This document shows, piece by piece, positions 43,003-49,540 of a DNA stretch of 64,000 bases. How positions within the stretch are numbered: the stretch's first letter is position 1; every line of letters begins with the position of its first letter. The translations under genes and the position numbers were made by a program. This stretch comes from Nitratireductor alexandrii (GTDB lineage: Bacteria > Pseudomonadota > Alphaproteobacteria > Rhizobiales > Rhizobiaceae), in contig NZ_RBVY01000001.1 of the NCBI RefSeq assembly GCF_004000215.1, positions 186,001 to 250,000 on the forward strand, given 5' to 3'. Below the pieces are notes generated by a model. The model was not told the DNA's origin and did not search any database. It worked only from the letters and a program-made list of their open reading frames with translations.

Positions 43003-44339
43003 GTGCAACAGCGCCTTGGAAAGGGCTGGCGCGGGCCGCAAGGCGCGCCGGGCGGGCTAAAGACGCCGCCCGCGCGGCGTCCATGGCGGCCGCCGTGGCA
43101 CGACGGTGCGCGCCTGCTCGCCGGCATGGCGACCTTGAGCGGCTGGCGCGGGATGCTGCGCCGGCTGCGCCTGTCGGAGGACGAGGCGCTGCGGCTTGCC
43201 GTGCGCGCCGACCTTAACGGCACCGAACTGCTCGACGAACTCTACGTGGCCGGCTTCGTGCCCGAAGACGCGCTCTACCGCGCCTTGGCGGACGAGATCG
43301 GACTCGCCTTCGAACCGGCCACGCCGTCGGGCGCGCTCGTCCTGCGCGACCGGGAACTGCTTATGCTGCTTTCCCGGCCGCGCGGACAGCTTCACGTGCG
43401 CACCGATGGCGGTGGACCGCCAGGGGTGCTGTTGTCGTCGACGAGGCTCAATCCGGGCGAGGCGCGCCGCCGCTTCGACGGTCGCGCCGATCTCGTCAGC
43501 CGCCTGCGCCTGGTCGCGCCAGGGAGCCTGCGCGCTGCGTTGCTGGATCTGGCGCGGCGTCTGTTGCTGGACGAGGCCTTGCGCGGCCTGTTCGCCGCCC
43601 GGCCGGACCTGTCCGCCCGCCAGGGCGCGACCTCCTGGCAGGGGCTGACGCTCGGGCTGCTGCTGATCGGTGGACCGGTCGCCTACGCCCTGGCGCCGGG
43701 AATTACGGTCTGGTCCGCCTTCGTGGTCATCACCGCGATCTTTTTCATGTGCGTCGGTCTGCGCCTGGCGGCGTTGACGCAAGCGCATCCCGCCGATCCG
43801 CGTCCGCCCGCCGTCGCGACCGCGCGGACGCTTCCGGTCTACACGATCCTGATCGCCCTGCATTCGGAAGCCGAGATCATCGACGATCTTTTCGACGCGT
43901 TGGCGCGGATCGTGTGGCCGCGCAGCAAGCTGGAGATCAAGTTCGTCTGCGAGGCCGATGACGCGCCCACGCTCGCCGCCATCGCCCGCCAGCGGTTGCG
44001 ACCGTGGATGGAGATCATTCGGGTCCCGCCGTGCCAACCGCGCACCAAGCCGAAGGCGCTCGCCTTCGCGCTGCCGGCGGTCGGCGGCGAACTGGTGGCG
44101 CTCTACGACGCCGAGGACCGCCCGCATCCCATGCAGTTGCTGGAGGCCTGGCAACGTTTTCGGGACGGCGACGAGCGGCTGGCCTGCGTCCAGGCGCCGC
44201 TGGTGGTGGCCAATGCCGCCGCCGGTGCGCTGCCACGCATGTTCCAGATGGAATATGCGTTGCATTTCAACGGGATTTTGCCCTGGCTCTCGCGGCACGG
44301 GCTGAGCTTCCCGCTCGGCGGCACGTCCAACCATTTCCG
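43003..44339 (+). pseudogene. Family 2 glycosyltransferase, N-terminal part (gene split by a transposon)
   Basis: Five-prime part of a membrane glycosyltransferase interrupted after residue 445; the open frame runs on into the element and stops at 44448. It starts at GTG 43003 behind a strong GGAGGGGAG site. Parts: a basic N-terminus, a domain resembling the N-domain of type II secretion ATPases (RADLNGTELLDELYVAGFVPEDALYRAL), two transmembrane helices (about 225-270) and the GT-A domain with CEADDAP and DAEDRPHP, the nucleotide-sugar metal site. The TED and QxxRW motifs needed for catalysis are on the other side of the insertion (48839-49540). Joined across the duplicated target the two parts give 676 residues in one frame. 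It lies 76 bases after the crotonase gene on the same strand. Confidence 0.9.
44332..44339. repeat. Target-site duplication, left copy
   Basis: CATTTCCG directly before the left end of the element is repeated exactly at 48839-48846 after its right end. An 8-bp duplication is the length made by IS1595-family elements. Confidence 0.92.
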
Positions 44340-44364
44340 CGGCCTTATGTATCAAAGGCACCAA
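44340..44364 (+). repeat. Left terminal inverted repeat of the transposon
   Basis: The 25 bases match the reverse complement of 48814-48838 at 23 positions; the outer 16 (CGGCCTTATGTATCAA) are identical. Confidence 0.93.
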
Positions 44365-44372
44365 GGCTGCGG

Positions 44373-44393
44373 GTGGAGTCATGATGACTCCAC
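44373..44393. repeat. Perfect 21-bp palindrome just inside the left end of the transposon
   Basis: The arms GTGGAGTCAT and ATGACTCCAC flank a single central G. It begins 9 bases inside the left inverted repeat and 31 bases before the first cargo ATG. I do not see an equivalent at the right end. It could be an operator for the cargo gene, a transposase-binding subterminal site, or a hairpin that blocks read-through. Confidence 0.7.
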
Positions 44394-44423
44394 AACCAGA
44401 CCGAAAGCGGGCATGCTGCTGCG

Positions 44424-45125
44424 ATGGGCGAGCCTCGAAATCTCTTAAAGAAAGTCATCCCGGCCGCGCTTCTGGAACTGGTCGTTTGGTTTCCAGTAGG
44501 TGGGTTGATAGACGCCGCATCGAAGTCTCTCTTTGGGAGACAATTTGAGATGGCGGAGTTTTTGACCGGCTACCTCCCACTACTTCGAGGTATCGGCATC
44601 GGTGCGGTGATAGCGTTCATCGTGGATGACCTCCTATCGCCGCGATCATGGGTTCTATCGACATGGAAGGAATGGCGAGGGCACCGAGCCACATTTGAGT
44701 TTCGATTCAATGCGAGGGATGATCGCGCCTTTGACTACGAAGTTAAGGTGAAGCTTGGCCGGAACAGCGGCAGAGTTTTTCTTACTGGCCGTGCCGCGAG
44801 GTTAAGGCACTACATGGACGGAACGACCAAATGGAAATGGGAGACGCCTCCCATTACCCTTTGGGAGACAGCGCGTGGGGCAAAGGGCGAGGAGGTCGAG
44901 CGGCAAGTATTTTTGCGGAAACCGGACGACGCTCATAAAGTCCGCGTCTTTGATCGAGACATCTCAATCAAGGATGTAGAGTTAATTCTTGTCGAGGTGA
45001 CAATCAACGTTGGCGGCAGGGTCGAAAGACGCAAAAAGGTGTTCGAGGTTTTTGTTCCAGAACGGATAATTACGAGGGCGATAGAGCCGTCATGGCTACC
45101 CTTCACGCCGAGCGAGCCTTCATAG
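44424..45125 (+). CDS. Transposon cargo: hypothetical membrane protein
   Basis: A 233-residue protein. The first 70 residues carry two hydrophobic stretches (VIPAALLELVVWFPVGGLI and LLRGIGIGAVIAFIVDDLL); the rest is a soluble, beta-rich domain with many charged residues (FEFRFNARDDRAFDYEVKVKLG, VELILVEVTINVGGRVERRKK). I recognise no family. Its base composition differs from the host genes. It lies between the left end and the transposase and its last six bases overlap the convergent DUF6471 gene. A membrane-linked effector or immunity role beside a restriction-modification gene is conceivable but unsupported. Confidence 0.7.
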   Translation: MGEPRNLLKKVIPAALLELVVWFPVGGLIDAASKSLFGRQFEMAEFLTGYLPLLRGIGIGAVIAFIVDDLLSPRSWVLSTWKEWRGHRATFEFRFNARDDRAFDYEVKVKLGRNSGRVFLTGRAARLRHYMDGTTKWKWETPPITLWETARGAKGEEVERQVFLRKPDDAHKVRVFDRDISIKDVELILVEVTINVGGRVERRKKVFEVFVPERIITRAIEPSWLPFTPSEPS

Positions 45126-45341
45126 CCGCAACGCTCTAAGATCAATCGCGATCATACATTGTAACAAGAACGCTGCCGTAAACTTGCCCCGCGAAAGCTT
45201 GTTGCGGATATTCACTTCCTTCTCGTCAACGCCTATCGCTGCCAGTTTCTCGACAAGCTGCGAATAGGTGACGCCTTTCCGCTTCAACTCGGCCTTCAGG
45301 AGGTTGGCCGCTAGAGCCTCATAGTCCGTCTTCTCTGCCAT
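45120..45341 (-). CDS. DUF6471 domain protein
   Basis: A 73-residue protein: DYEALAANLLKAELKRKGVTYSQLVEKL, then VNIRNKLSRGKFTAAFLLQCMIAI. This looks like a small helix-turn-helix-type fold and matches DUF6471 as I remember it, a family often found beside transposase genes. It is transcribed away from the transposase; the shared intergenic region has an inverted repeat (45414-45439), so a repressor of transposase expression is a reasonable guess. Confidence 0.78.
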   Translation of the reverse strand: MAEKTDYEALAANLLKAELKRKGVTYSQLVEKLAAIGVDEKEVNIRNKLSRGKFTAAFLLQCMIAIDLRALRL

Positions 45342-45413
45342 ATGTATCACCTTCGATGCAAAAAGTATCGCAAATGATGACATATGCCCTTGTAAGCCAT
45401 ACGTCAACGTACT

Positions 45414-45439
45414 ATATCCGATACGAACGTAACGGATAT
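45414..45439. promoter_or_regulatory. Inverted repeat in the DUF6471 / transposase divergent promoter
   Basis: ATATCCG (45414-45420) and CGGATAT (45433-45439) are inverted copies separated by 12 bases and end 8 bases before the transposase ATG. A protein bound here would block transposase expression. Confidence 0.5.
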
Positions 45440-45447
45440 GATGACAA

Positions 45448-46413
45448 ATGGCACAGCACTTCCTCCTTTCCGCAGAAGCCCGCACCCTTTCCCTGAAAGC
45501 GATCTATCAGGGCGGCGAGGAAAAGGCTTACGAGGCGTTCAAGCGTCTCCGCTGGCAGGAGACGAAAGGCGAGCCGGTTTGCCCCAAATGCGGATGCCTG
45601 GATCATTACGCGATCACCACCCGCCGCAAGTTCAAATGCGCGGCCTGTCATGCGCAGTACAGCGTTACCAGCGGCACGATGTTCGCTTCCCGCAAACTGT
45701 CCTTCACCGATCTGCTGGCCGCGATTTGCCTGTTCGTGAACGGCTCCAAGGGCATGTCGGCGGTCCAGTTCTCGCGCGATCTGGACGTGCAGTACAAGAC
45801 TGCTTTCGTTCTGGCGCACAAGCTGCGCGAGGCGTTGGCGGCTGAAACCGCGAATGAAATCCTCGACGGCGAAGTTGAAATCGACGGTGCCTATTTCGGC
45901 GGTCACGTTCGCCCGGAGAACCGCGAGGAAGATCGCCGCGACCGTCGCCGCACCGAGAACCGTTCCGACCGTCGCCGCGTCGTCATCGCCCTGCGCGAGC
46001 GCAAGGGCCGCACCCTGTCATTCGTGCGCAACCGGGAAGCCGAGGGCGTCGAAATCGCCCGCGCCCGTCTCGTCGCCAAGGCCAAGCTGTTTGCCGATGA
46101 AGCCACCCATTGGGATGTTCTGGAAATGCAGTTCGAGACGGGCCGGATCAATCACAGCGAAGCCTACAGCGACGGCAACGGCAAGCACACGAACTTTGTC
46201 GAAAGCTACTTCTCGCGCCTTCGCCGCATGGTCAGCGGTCAACACCACCACGTTTCGCACCGCTACCTGTACCAGTATGCGAACCATGCCGCTTGGCTTG
46301 AAGATCACCGCCGCCGCTCAAACGGTGCGAACGCCTTCGCCCTGCTTGGTGGCGCGCTCAATCATCCGGTGTCGCGGGTGTGGGCGGGGTACTGGCAGCG
46401 GCGCGCAGCCTAA
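45448..46413 (+). CDS. IS1595 family transposase
   Basis: A 321-residue transposase. It begins with an N-terminal zinc ribbon (CPKCGC, then CAAC), followed by the ISXO2-like catalytic domain: EVEIDGAYFGG carries the first Asp, then the second acidic residue in LFADEATHWDVL, and NGKHTNFVESYFSRLRRM near the end, where the family uses His/Asn-Phe-Val-E. The frame is complete and the element ends are intact, so it may be active. Its stop overlaps the convergent methyltransferase-nuclease stop by 4 bases. Confidence 0.94.
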   Translation: MAQHFLLSAEARTLSLKAIYQGGEEKAYEAFKRLRWQETKGEPVCPKCGCLDHYAITTRRKFKCAACHAQYSVTSGTMFASRKLSFTDLLAAICLFVNGSKGMSAVQFSRDLDVQYKTAFVLAHKLREALAAETANEILDGEVEIDGAYFGGHVRPENREEDRRDRRRTENRSDRRRVVIALRERKGRTLSFVRNREAEGVEIARARLVAKAKLFADEATHWDVLEMQFETGRINHSEAYSDGNGKHTNFVESYFSRLRRMVSGQHHHVSHRYLYQYANHAAWLEDHRRRSNGANAFALLGGALNHPVSRVWAGYWQRRAA

Positions 46414-48239
46414 GCCGTTTTCCGTTTGTCGCCCGGCGCGGAATAAACCATCGTGGGATTGAAGTGTCTTTTGACGCCAGTGGATTTCCCACCTGTAAAG
46501 CTCAGCGGCAGTTCGGGCTGCGACGGATCGGGCGGCCGAACCGCTTTCGCTTTGGCACGCCGTTTGGCAGTCGAGAATGCAGCCGTTGGCAGATGTTCAA
46601 GCGGCGGCAGCTTCGGCAACCGCCCATCGAACCAATCTTGAATAGACACGATCTGTATGCGTGGAATATCGCCGTGTACCGTGTCGGCGAAATTTGCCGC
46701 ATCCGCCTCTGCCTGCATCGCAGCTGTTGGATGATGCAAGCAAATGAAAAGCCCCATCTCGGCGTTTTCCCGTTCGATTACACCTCTGAAATCACGCACC
46801 ATGGCCGGCCCAACCGACGATCCACCTTTCACCGATGTGAGCATGCGCCCCCATGGGCGGGCCGGACCATTCGGGAAAAATAGTTCGCCGTCAATGCCGC
46901 GATCAGCACCCTTTTTTTGCTCGCGAAGTGCGTGGGGGTTGAAAAGGTAATTCGCCCACCACTGGAATTGATATTTGTCGCGTTCCGCCAGCTTCACCGC
47001 AGACGCAAAATCGCGAGGCATACCCTCTATATCGTATGCAACTTCGCCAATCCGCTCGCCTAATCGCGCCTCAATCACCTTGACCGCGTGGATCGCTATG
47101 TCGATGCCGATCCACTGCCTTCCAAGCCGTTGCGCAGCTTCGACAGTCGTACCGCAGCCGCAAAATGGATCGAGCACAATGCCGCCTTCGTCGGATGCCG
47201 CTCGAATAACGCGATCCAAAAGACCCAGCGGCTTTTGAGTCGGATAACCTATCCTCTCGCGGCCGCCTTGCGCTGGAAGCCATCTAACATCTTCGTCAAT
47301 CGCTTCCGCGCTTTCGTGAAGAAGACCCTTCGTGTACGGCTGGTAAGCCCATATGTCTTGCAACAGCAATCCAGGGCTGCTGTCGAGATACTGCCTGTAC
47401 GTTGGAAGAGACCCGGTCGAAGGATCGGGGAAGTCAACAAGGCCTAGATCAGCGAGGGTGTCCAGTTTTTCATGTTGCGGAAGGCTAGAGTCAATGCCAA
47501 ACGCTTCAACAAGTTCACCTGGAACCGCCCAATGCCTTCCTCGTGCGGTCGGATCATAACCGCGCCACTTTTGCCCGGATTCTCCATTACGCGTTCCTGC
47601 GCCATGGATGGAGTTTGTCCAATAGCGGCCCCGTTCATCGCTCTGCTTGAAATAGCTTTCGACGTGCCCCTTCAAATACGGTCGGAATACTGGCCGATGC
47701 CTATAGGCATCCGACTTGCGATAGAAGTGGATGACATCGTGAATCGGTCCAAAGCGGTTCGCCTTGTTGTGTGAGCCGGTGCGCCGCCAGATGATTTCGT
47801 TGAGATAGTTCTGAGGCCCGAATACCGCATCAAGTATGATTTTTAGATAGTGGCTAGCTGTTGGGTCGCAGTGCAGAAACAACGCACCTTCGGGCTTAAG
47901 CTTCCGGTGCAGTTCCTGTAGCCGCACGGCCATCATTACCAAGTAGGCCATCATGTCGCTCTGGCCCAAGGCGGATCGCAGAGCCTCGATGAATTTTGCG
48001 ACACCACCGCCCGAGGCCATTATCTCGCGATAGGCCCAATTGGTTTCGTCACCCCATGTCCATGTGTCCCTGAAAGCTTCGGCCTGCGCAGCTGCTGCTG
48101 CATTTTTTGGACTCTCAAAAAGGACATTGTACTGAGCTTGGCTGTTGAAGGGTGGATCAAGGTAGATCAGATCAATGCTTTGATCGTCCACATACTCTCG
48201 CAGGATGTCGAGATTATCGCCAAAGAATAGCTTGTTCAT
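46410..48239 (-). CDS. Transposon cargo: beta-class DNA methyltransferase fused to a Mrr-like restriction nuclease domain
   Basis: A 609-residue protein. Motif IV is DPPF at 28-31, preceded by GDNLDILREY, and SAM-binding motif I is VLDPFCGCGTTVEAAQRLG near 353; motif IV before motif I marks a beta-class N6-adenine or N4-cytosine enzyme. The specificity region lies between them. After about residue 440 comes GADRGIDGELFF and then LTSVKGGSSVGPAMVRDF, an arrangement (Asp, then Ser-Val-Lys) like the Mrr-type PD-(D/E)xK nucleases. It may be a single-chain restriction-modification enzyme or a modification enzyme with a decayed nuclease. No separate Res subunit is present. The wHTH gene upstream is 79 bases away on the same strand. 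Confidence 0.85.
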   Translation of the reverse strand: MNKLFFGDNLDILREYVDDQSIDLIYLDPPFNSQAQYNVLFESPKNAAAAAQAEAFRDTWTWGDETNWAYREIMASGGGVAKFIEALRSALGQSDMMAYLVMMAVRLQELHRKLKPEGALFLHCDPTASHYLKIILDAVFGPQNYLNEIIWRRTGSHNKANRFGPIHDVIHFYRKSDAYRHRPVFRPYLKGHVESYFKQSDERGRYWTNSIHGAGTRNGESGQKWRGYDPTARGRHWAVPGELVEAFGIDSSLPQHEKLDTLADLGLVDFPDPSTGSLPTYRQYLDSSPGLLLQDIWAYQPYTKGLLHESAEAIDEDVRWLPAQGGRERIGYPTQKPLGLLDRVIRAASDEGGIVLDPFCGCGTTVEAAQRLGRQWIGIDIAIHAVKVIEARLGERIGEVAYDIEGMPRDFASAVKLAERDKYQFQWWANYLFNPHALREQKKGADRGIDGELFFPNGPARPWGRMLTSVKGGSSVGPAMVRDFRGVIERENAEMGLFICLHHPTAAMQAEADAANFADTVHGDIPRIQIVSIQDWFDGRLPKLPPLEHLPTAAFSTAKRRAKAKAVRPPDPSQPELPLSFTGGKSTGVKRHFNPTMVYSAPGDKRKTA

Positions 48240-48318
48240 CGCCGTTGCCCTCGCCGCGCCGAATAGAAGTGTGCCGAAATGTGGTTAAGAAAGGAAAAGC
48301 GACCCGGTAAGGGATCGT

Positions 48319-48768
48319 TTACTTTTGAAGATTCCAGATGAACTCGCCGCGTACCTTTTCCGATGTCCGCGTTACAATACCGGCGTCCTGCATCTGCCGA
48401 AGCGCCTTCCCCATGCGCTTCACGATGTCGTTCATCATGCGCCGGTTGCGGGAGTCCTTGCCTTCGATCTGGATTAGGCGCTCTGCCATTTCGCGCGACG
48501 TTGACGGGCCATGTTCCTTCAATGACTGGCGAAGGAAGGCGCGCAACTCGCCACGGTAGAAAAGCACGATGCGCGGCGCTCTGGTCGCAATCGTCGGCAA
48601 ATCGCCCTGATAGCCGAGCGTTTCCAGGATGCGCTCCATGGCCTCTAGGTCGTTCGACTGGACCGCGATCTGTTCCCGCAGATCGGCAAGATTGGCGAGC
48701 ATTTCGCCGCGCTTGCGGAGCAACCCGGATATCGTGTGGTCGTAGGTGTCTGTACGTGAAGGTCTCAT
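48319..48768 (-). CDS. Transposon cargo: coiled-coil / winged-helix-like protein
   Basis: A 149-residue protein. The first half is helical with heptad-like spacing (ISGLLRKRGEMLANLADLREQIAVQSNDLEAMERIL). The second half looks like a winged helix (LRQSLKEHGPSTSREMAERLIQI, RMGKALRQMQDAGIVTRTSEKVRGEFIWNL). It reads into the methyltransferase-nuclease gene, so it could be its controller or a targeting subunit. I recognise no named family. Its start lies 46 bases from the right inverted repeat. Confidence 0.72.
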   Translation of the reverse strand: MRPSRTDTYDHTISGLLRKRGEMLANLADLREQIAVQSNDLEAMERILETLGYQGDLPTIATRAPRIVLFYRGELRAFLRQSLKEHGPSTSREMAERLIQIEGKDSRNRRMMNDIVKRMGKALRQMQDAGIVTRTSEKVRGEFIWNLQK

Positions 48769-48813
48769 AGGTGCGGATTCTATGGGAACCCGCTATGATG
48801 CGCCTTGGAAATG

Positions 48814-48838
48814 TTGGTGCTGTTGATACATAAGGCCG
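48814..48838 (-). repeat. Right terminal inverted repeat of the transposon
   Basis: The reverse complement matches the left end at 23 of 25 positions, the outer 16 bases being identical. Confidence 0.93.
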
Positions 48839-48846
48839 CATTTCCG
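48839..48846. repeat. Target-site duplication, right copy
   Basis: CATTTCCG, identical to 44332-44339. It is also coding sequence (His-Phe-Arg) of the interrupted glycosyltransferase. Confidence 0.92.
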
Positions 48847-49540
48847 TCGGCGCGCGCTGATCGCGGTCGGTGGCTGGGATCCCTACAACGTCACCGAGGA
48901 TGCGGATCTGGGAACCCGCTTCGCGCGGTTCGGCTATCGCTGCGAGACCATCACCTGTCCGACCCTGGAGGACGCACCCGACGAGGTCGGGGTCTGGCTG
49001 CGCCAGCGCACGCGCTGGTTCAAGGGCTGGATCCAGACCTGGTTCGTTCATATGCGTCGACCGGCGCGGTTTTATCGCGAGGTCGGGGCGGCGTCCTTCA
49101 TCGCGGTCCAGGTGATGTTCGCCGGCATGATCGCCTCGGCGCTCGCGCATCCCGTCCTGCTGGCGAGCATCGCCTATCTGGGGGCCAAGCTGGGCTGGGC
49201 CGGCACGCTCGATGGCGGCGACGCCGTGCTGCTGGCGCTCGCGCTTTTCAACATGGTGCTCGGCTACGGCTCGTTCCTGGCTCTGGGCTTGCGCTGCCTC
49301 GACAAGGCCGACAGGCGCGGTTTCTGGAAGAACGCCGCGCTGACGCCGGCCTATTGGCTTTTGATGTCGGCAGCCGCGTTGCGCGCCTGCTGGCAGATCT
49401 GCTGGTGGCCGCATTATTGGGAAAAGACGCCGCACAAGCGCCACGCCGGCACCGAGGGCGAGACCGGCAGCCCGCATGCCCGCTTCCGGAGGTCCCCACG
49501 CCCGCCGCAACCGGCCGGTCCGCGCGTCAGCTTCCGATGA
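48839..49540 (+). pseudogene. Family 2 glycosyltransferase, C-terminal part (gene split by a transposon)
   Basis: Three-prime part of the interrupted gene. It opens inside the duplicated target and reads RRRALIAVGGWDPYNVTEDADLG, with TED as the catalytic-base motif, followed by LRQRTRWFKGW containing QxxRW, the signature of processive membrane glycosyltransferases. Three or four transmembrane helices follow (for example FIAVQVMFAGMIASALAHPVLL). Without the N-terminal half it has no start signal of its own and should not be functional. The last 14 bases overlap the convergent ppk2 gene. The intact enzyme was probably a polysaccharide synthase or exporter-linked transferase. Confidence 0.9.

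Follow-up and report, generated by a model that had tools for sequence, protein, structure and literature searches.

The IS1595 family includes tIS elements with passenger genes, such as MTnSag1/tISSag10 and tISCpe8, according to the part of PMC5704250 available to us, and its transposases combine a DDE_Tnp_IS1595 domain with an N-terminal zinc ribbon (PMC8101967, likewise in part). Already known, as far as the accessible portions of the sources go, are also beta-class DNA methyltransferases, Mrr-cat domains and the Type IIG enzymes that join both functions (PMC3874165). Here we describe an IS1595 transposon of 4,499 bp, at 44340-48838 of a 64,000-nt stretch (the window) of contig NZ_RBVY01000001.1 of Nitratireductor alexandrii (186,001-250,000, forward strand; coordinates are positions within the window), which carries a predicted beta-class methyltransferase fused to an Mrr-like domain. 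With somewhat better than even confidence we read this gene as a solitary modification methyltransferase that is cargo of a modular IS1595 transposon. In a literature covered mostly at the level of titles and abstracts, with subscription papers largely outside, no account was found of this IS1595 group with accessory genes or of a methyltransferase-Mrr fusion. Three things must be told apart: a single-chain methyltransferase with a nuclease-fold domain, its carrier transposon, and an accessory gene of that transposon.

Both ends of the transposon and an exact 8-bp target duplication were identified. When the flanks are joined with a single copy of the duplication, a continuous glycosyltransferase frame of 676 amino acids (aa) results. 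A congener has this gene intact, and the two proteins align without gaps (81% over 659 aa). The G+C content is 56% in the element and 66% in its flanks, a difference which indicates that the element is of foreign origin. It contains five genes, for a 233-aa protein, a DUF6471 protein, the transposase, the methyltransferase-Mrr protein and a 149-aa protein. The transposase matches PF12762 (7.7e-34), the zinc ribbon PF12760 (4.2e-14) and NF033547 (156.6 bits against a cut-off of 75). Its residues D146, D217 and E252 would be catalytic and its cysteines 45, 48, 64 and 67 zinc ligands; all seven are invariant across 24 transposases, and from this follows that the transposase looks intact. The transposase domain with its zinc ribbon, the 8-bp duplications and the terminal inverted repeats place the element in the IS1595 family, as had been proposed when the DNA was read from sequence alone. 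A simple insertion sequence has a single transposase gene; since four additional genes lie inside this element, it fits the passenger-carrying tIS form instead. With the tIS elements, as described in the portion of PMC5704250 at hand, it shares the DDE_Tnp_IS1595 domain and zinc ribbon, 25-bp inverted repeats, 8-bp duplications and passengers. It differs from those described there in that its passenger is a methyltransferase with an Mrr-like domain, and in that its group adds a winged-helix-like gene and usually DUF6471.

The methyltransferase gene, 46410-48239 on the minus strand, is a single open frame of 609 aa containing DPPF (residues 28-31), FCGCGTT, GIDGELFF and SVKGG, in which Pfam recognises N6_N4_Mtase (1.2e-39, residues 22-389) as well as Mrr_cat. 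The earlier claim that a beta-class methyltransferase is continuous with an Mrr-like segment therefore stands. In a predicted model of the whole protein, with a mean predicted local distance difference test score (pLDDT) of 82.7, residues 1-407 match M.BceJIV and M.RsrI (Z 26) and CcrM (Z 25.5), and PADLOC returns type II, type III or orphan methyltransferases (best 25 of 79 models). In beta-class amino-methyltransferases motif IV precedes motif I. The present protein has this order, with motif IV (DPPF/Y) ahead of the S-adenosylmethionine motif I, together with the N6_N4_Mtase domain, and residues 1-407 are thus predicted to be a beta-class DNA methyltransferase fold. The motif DPPF fits N6-adenine, which is probably the target base. 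The protein shares fold and motif order with M.BceJIV, M.RsrI and CcrM (Z 25-26), but has an extra C-terminal Mrr-like domain, and its motifs IV and I are, by eye, further apart. No separate endonuclease was recognised within the element, where the fused domain has an altered active site.

In the whole protein Mrr_cat is matched at residues 438-516 (1.2e-4, 22.6 bits, cut-off 21), and in the domain alone at 8.7e-6. Because a fold search with the whole protein returned methyltransferases throughout, the domain was folded alone; residues 405-552 then gave a pLDDT of 88.3, a predicted template modelling score of 0.86 and a helix-strand-strand-helix-strand core. The top matches of a second-look aligner were AF1548 (Z 9.6), AspBHI (9.2), MspJI (9.1 and 9.0) and the small subunit of R.BspD6I (8.8), where matches within one Z unit count as tied and values below 8, which those of this domain just exceed, may reflect a common arrangement only. 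Foldseek placed RNA polymerase subunit 5xog_E first (E 4.7e-4) and MspJI second (E 3.4e-3), and the domain sequence had chance matches only among solved structures (best E 0.63). Sequence and model together indicate that the C-terminal domain has an Mrr/MspJI-like PD-(D/E)xK fold, which is what the structure prediction suggested in the sequence-only reading was meant to check; absence of this fold, named there as a refuting result, was not observed.

The motif of Mrr-cat is (D/E)..(D/E/Q)xK (PMC3874153) and that of Mrr and MspJI is PD-QxK (PMC12707154), in the sections of these papers that we could consult. To see how the present domain compares, consider 60 aligned rows, made up of the window and 59 of the 74 relatives without internal stops, from the 80 loci described below. 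Residue 469 is Ser in 54 of the 60 rows, window included, Gln in five and Glu in one, while residue 426, the position of the helix-A acid, is Gln in 55 (Q426 in the window) and Glu in five. Despite D450 and K471, the window and most other rows thus depart from the catalytic pattern (D/E)..(D/E/Q)xK through their Ser at 469. NA-iREase1, a Pfam family named inactive, matches 58 of the 60 domains, and Mrr_cat 59. Since the (D/E/Q)xK position is Ser, restriction activity becomes less likely; nuclease activity of the domain appears doubtful, and binding or positioning of DNA is a more likely role than cutting.

There are, at the same time, points that weigh against such a loss of cutting. D446, D450 and K471 do not vary in any of the 60 rows, and D450 and K471 are also kept in two phage and two plasmid homologues; residue 426 is Glu in both phage homologues and in one of the plasmid homologues. 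The window domain passes Mrr_cat (26.3 against a cut-off of 21) and narrowly fails NA-iREase1 (26.0 against 27). With D450 and K471 invariant, and with Ser, Gln and Glu all occurring at residue 469, catalysis may be kept. The protein would then be a single-chain restriction-modification enzyme, in which the methyltransferase protects the host and cutting by the Mrr-like domain is directed at unmodified or foreign-modified DNA, and which would serve the transposon in defence or addiction. This alternative stays alive because the Asp and the Lys are invariant, and it draws further strength from the PD-(D/E)xK fold, whose tied top matches include AF1548, AspBHI and MspJI (Z 9.0-9.6), from the fact that no separate partner gene recurs near the methyltransferase, and from toxin-antitoxin-like cargo in some other elements of the group. 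We nevertheless regard it as unlikely, given that Ser prevails at residue 469 and Gln at the helix-A position, against the (D/E)..(D/E/Q)xK and PD-QxK motifs of the reviews (PMC3874153, PMC12707154), and given that copies of the methyltransferase-Mrr protein exist in phages. The conserved Ser-x-Lys thus poses a question of wider interest, namely whether a PD-(D/E)xK domain fused to a methyltransferase is a cutter or a reader.

Two classes of known enzyme are closest in this respect. The modification-dependent endonucleases MspJI/AspBHI and Mrr, as far as the parts seen of PMC3874153 and PMC12707154 describe them, resemble the window domain in their Mrr-cat fold (Z about 9) and in the retained Asp and Lys, but in the window domain Ser replaces the Gln or Glu before xK, and the fusion is to a methyltransferase and not to an SRA-like or winged-helix reader domain. 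The Type IIG (IIC) enzymes of PMC3874165, again from a partial text, likewise have methyltransferase and nuclease-fold domain in one chain; they are, however, gamma-class with an N-terminal cleavage domain, while the window protein has the beta-class order, a C-terminal Mrr-like domain and an altered active site, and so falls outside Type IIG. A Type IIG nuclease fragment flanked by transposition genes, of a different family, appears in the accessible part of PMC4389544.

Relatives of the methyltransferase were confirmed in the genome collection (the best 80 of 367), with flanks of up to 6 kb, shorter at contig ends. The closest relative found among them is 61-65% identical. An IS1595 transposase adjoins three of the 80 and is missing from the flanks of the other 77; in the loci read, the methyltransferase-Mrr family is mostly outside IS1595. 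The first of the three, L003 in an alphaproteobacterial metagenome-assembled genome (MAG), is an IS1595-borne methyltransferase for which no ends were found and where the contig stops 144 bp before the methyltransferase. The second, L004 in a Pseudorhodoplanes MAG, is a bounded 4,227-bp element with an 8-bp duplication, AAAATAAT, and a transposase 28% identical to that of the window; the third, L011 in an Eremiobacterota MAG, is likewise bounded, at 4,311 bp, with 9 identical bases flanking it and a transposase 31% identical. The ends of both are unlike the window's. Methyltransferase and transposase are convergent in the window and in all three. They are direct neighbours except in L003, where the winged-helix-like gene intervenes. 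A tree was built from 78 of 81 rows, which had been cut at internal stops and of which three were then too short or too long to keep. On it the four IS1595-borne copies require two changes, and those of the window, L003 and L004 cluster with a support of 91, below the starred level. IS1595 elements thus captured the methyltransferase at least twice, and since L004 groups with the window while their transposases are only 28% identical, the gene occurs in two different IS1595 branches.

Dam methylation tunes IS10 and IS50, and the present methyltransferase could in the same manner regulate its own transposon, with methylated sites in the ends or the promoter tuning transposase expression or end activity. 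In its favour, the tree shows two or more captures by IS1595 elements, and all the captured copies are convergent with their transposase. No shared target site is evident, however, in L004 and L011, with their different ends and their transposases of 28% and 31% identity, and in the window's own group L003 is the one further element, among those read, to carry a methyltransferase, which makes self-regulation quite improbable.

Elsewhere, relatives occur in six plasmid records at E 1e-60 and in 28 phage records at E 1e-40 (Streptomyces, Mycobacterium and Marinitoga phages). Both domains are present in Mycobacterium phage Amgine (L225, 2492-4123) and Streptomyces phage Hippo (L226, 2474-4117), where the copies lie near integrase genes, keep SVK and are annotated merely as methyltransferases. 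Plasmid pTL2A of Cellulosimicrobium cellulans (L227, 1816-4740) has a separate Mrr_cat gene, with QVK, just upstream of a methyltransferase-Mrr gene with SVK. The SVK of the phage copies and this separate QVK gene speak for the reading as a solitary methyltransferase. Among frames of at least 80 aa in the flanks, no neighbour family recurs in more than six of the 80 loci. On plasmid pSfreGR64b of Sinorhizobium fredii (L182, 5117-11669) a relative is split in two annotated frames, with ThiF, Mov34/MPN/PAD-1, multiubiquitin and ImmA/IrrE genes as neighbours, which gives the region the look of a defence island.

The sequence-only reading had further paired the methyltransferase with a winged-helix protein encoded just upstream. 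A 149-aa frame does lie 79 bp upstream on the same strand, but its label is weakly supported. The window protein has no match in Pfam, NCBIfam, PADLOC or PHROGs. Sixteen homologues give nine Pfam families with one member each (E 0.003-0.04), three of them helix-turn-helix (HTH) or winged-helix types (HTH_12 0.0068, HARE-HTH 0.02, HTH_32 0.034), while the best, DUF4777 (0.0033), is of neither type; the matches of the family profile to solved structures are weak and by name mostly coiled coils (best E 0.017).

Consider now to which of its neighbours this gene belongs. If the winged-helix-like protein were a functional partner of the methyltransferase, as controller or specificity factor, for which the shared strand and the distance of 79 bp speak, the two genes should be found together. 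The 149-aa gene is present in 10 other genomes among 151 relatives, with the methyltransferase in none of the stretches read; a transposase of this group, or fragments of one, adjoins it in nine, and in the tenth (G034) it lies at a contig end with the transposase on another contig. Because these genomes had been picked by the 149-aa gene itself, the test was repeated from the transposase side. When 385 genomes of the class were scanned with nothing but the transposase (E 1e-100), 12 matches came from 11 genomes other than the own genome, and in 10 of the 12 the 149-aa gene lies within 2 kb downstream of the transposase frame or overlaps it. For the other two, L168 and L171, the transposase is 217 and 1,255 bp short of a contig end. 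Each of these genomes has the gene on a different contig, at 656 and 126 bp from that contig's end, beside an end-like repeat and with its transposase side toward the break. The methyltransferase is in none of these 12 stretches.

A profile search with the 149-aa family gave 26 matches besides the own one, 10 of which already had an adjoining transposase; of the 14 that were read among the remaining 16, seven have a transposase or a fragment and 13 an end-like match of at least 18/25, a level near noise, the best flank values being 14-16 for the 18 bounded elements considered below, and the 18/25 of L257 looks like chance. The 149-aa frame overlaps the transposase frame on the same strand in L116, L161, L170 and L003; the L116 copy is 80% identical to that of the window and sits in an element without the methyltransferase, while the IS1595 elements L004 and L011 have the methyltransferase but lack the 149-aa gene. 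From the methyltransferase side, the 149-aa gene lies in the flanks of one of the 80 loci. This is L003, where it stands on the transposase strand, convergent to the methyltransferase; the pair, which was to be sought outside transposons, thus occurs together only in what is itself an IS1595 element. Since the 149-aa gene accompanies the transposase and not the methyltransferase, it is a gene of the transposon. As an explanation, a partnership with the methyltransferase is strongly disfavoured and very improbable, and co-occurrence has ruled it out as a candidate.

The setting of the cargo is seen most clearly in 18 bounded elements, having both ends and an exact 8-bp duplication, of which seven were chosen by the winged-helix-like gene and 10 by the transposase, the last being the window's. 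An 8-bp duplication is present in 17 of the 17 others, where it was part of the search score, and the elements measure 3.1-7.6 kb. Each end agrees in 18-24 of 25 positions with a leave-one-out consensus of CGGCATTATGTAGCAAACGCACCAA. End searches without the consensus are noisy, and scores of about 24-30 (inverted-repeat matches plus duplication) arise by chance; the bounds of L120, L172, L117 and L164 rest, for this reason, on the leave-one-out test and not on the pair score alone. In L170 the top end pair (32.5) is 12.7 kb long and had the look of an internal repeat; this locus and L118, L119, L169 and L171 gave no ends.

The winged-helix-like gene is in 18 of 18 bounded elements and starts 41-74 bp from the right end in 14; it follows the transposase in L116 and L161 and lies further in for L120 and L123. 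DUF6471, which also occurs without such a transposase in the flanks read, is in 15 (not in L116, L167 and L174), and the methyltransferase in one, the window's. In all 18 the space from the left end to DUF6471 or the transposase is occupied by a frame. These frames belong to about 12 families, of which three recur, in L117/L121, in L123/L124/L162/L164 and in L165/L166/L172, that is, in nine elements, while those of the other nine match none of the three. Beyond the transposase, the winged-helix-like gene and the usual DUF6471, the contents of the elements are exchangeable cargo. After the transposase, L117 and L123 have a gene pair in common, and L121/L166 and L161/L167 a single gene each; in L167 the gene shared with L161 precedes the transposase. 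Of 26 passengers scanned with Pfam from the 17 other elements (23 of 49 frames of at least 90 aa, plus three shorter ones; spurious-looking and several membrane-type frames were omitted), nine have a match: HTH_3 and DUF3800 in L116, Phd/YefM just below the cut-off in L120, IrrE-type peptidase in L161 and L167, SocA/Panacea and WYL in L163, PemK in L166 and Fic in L174. The other 17 have none. Toxin-antitoxin-like genes are thus frequent, as a raw count, among the recognisable cargo.

A wider proposal combines these observations. There would be an alphaproteobacterial IS1595 group with a standard kit of transposase, usually DUF6471, and an end-proximal winged-helix-like accessory, whose cargo sites repeatedly take up addiction or defence genes; the methyltransferase-Mrr protein would be a self-contained, selfish cargo and its Ser-x-Lys a functioning, possibly modification-gated PD-(D/E)xK variant. 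As a whole this is decidedly unlikely. Recurrent transposition genes with variable cargo are also found in the Tn7-like transposons with defence cargo, by the available part of PMC8649781; unlike those, the window's group has an IS1595 transposase and bounded elements of 3.1-7.6 kb. For the question of how a very small transposon comes by an accessory factor and by exchangeable, partly toxin-antitoxin-like cargo, the group offers a compact model that can be tested.

Rapid spread between genomes, which had been put forward as a consequence of carriage by the transposon, is not borne out. The own genome holds one full copy, three congeners have neither the winged-helix-like gene nor the transposase (the latter at E 1e-30), and for the methyltransferase they offer distant matches at best, the top one with E 1.8e-21 and 27% identity along a portion of its length; the closest methyltransferase, as said, is 61-65% identical. 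A recent burst of the element was rejected on the single copy and the congeners.

Under our preferred reading, that of a solitary methyltransferase as cargo, the parts would work as follows. The transposase would move the element by way of its 25-nt ends, as is established for the family, and the winged-helix-like protein and DUF6471 would probably regulate or assist transposition. It is a weak point of this reading that a role for the 149-aa protein, which perhaps regulates or binds the ends, is suggested by the company that the gene keeps. The methyltransferase, to judge from its fold and motifs, would mark the DNA of host and element, probably with N6-methyladenine, and the Mrr-like domain, having lost or nearly lost cutting, would bind or position DNA. 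On entry into a new cell, such marking could protect the element against restriction, a role much like that described for the orphan methyltransferases of mobile elements (PMC12707154).

Table 1. Positions within the window of the IS1595 transposon, its genes and the interrupted glycosyltransferase gene.
Feature	Position	Strand	Remarks
Glycosyltransferase gene, 5' part, start codon not settled	43003..44339	+	Pfam Glyco_tranf_2_3 8.2e-6, slightly below cut-off; frame resumes beyond the element
Target-site duplication, left copy, 8 bp, CATTTCCG	44332..44339		
Left terminal inverted repeat, 25 nt	44340..44364		21/25 against consensus from 17 other elements; flank maximum 15
233-aa passenger protein, N-terminal part hydrophobic by eye	44424..45125	+	
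DUF6471 gene, 84 aa, divergent to the transposase	45120..45374	-	PF20075 1.7e-29
IS1595 transposase, 321 aa, apparently intact	45448..46413	+	PF12762 7.7e-34
Predicted beta-class DNA methyltransferase with C-terminal Mrr-like domain, 609 aa	46410..48239	-	
Methyltransferase part, residues 1-407	47019..48239	-	DPPF (motif IV) ahead of DPFCGCGT (motif I)
Mrr-like domain of predicted PD-(D/E)xK fold, residues 422-540	46620..46976	-	D450, K471 retained; S469, Q426 replaced positions
149-aa winged-helix-like protein, N-terminal coiled coil by eye	48319..48768	-	start 70 bp inside the right end
Right terminal inverted repeat, 25 nt	48814..48838		23/25 identical to the left repeat
Target-site duplication, right copy, 8 bp, CATTTCCG	48839..48846		
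Glycosyltransferase gene, 3' part	48847..49540	+	

Some further observations concern the cargo sites. The convergent stops of methyltransferase and transposase overlap by 4 bp at 46410-46413, and an equal 4-bp overlap of convergent stops is seen with different cargo in L117 (7088-7091), as if cargo docks at the transposase stop. Some left-site frames have hydrophobic segments by eye, and the left site and the space after the transposase look like two cargo sites. The genes of the pair common to L117 (7088-8055) and L123 (9069-10085) are 54% identical each and have the opposite orientation relative to the transposase; three of the four genes, as scanned, have no Pfam match. The largest bounded element, L167 (2061-9670, 7,610 bp), encodes an HTH plus IrrE-peptidase protein and a 361-aa frame that by eye resembles a second transposase, so that this element may be nested. 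A second, distant IS1595 transposase, 28% identical, is found elsewhere in the genome of Nitratireductor alexandrii (G000:C40, 15250-16041).

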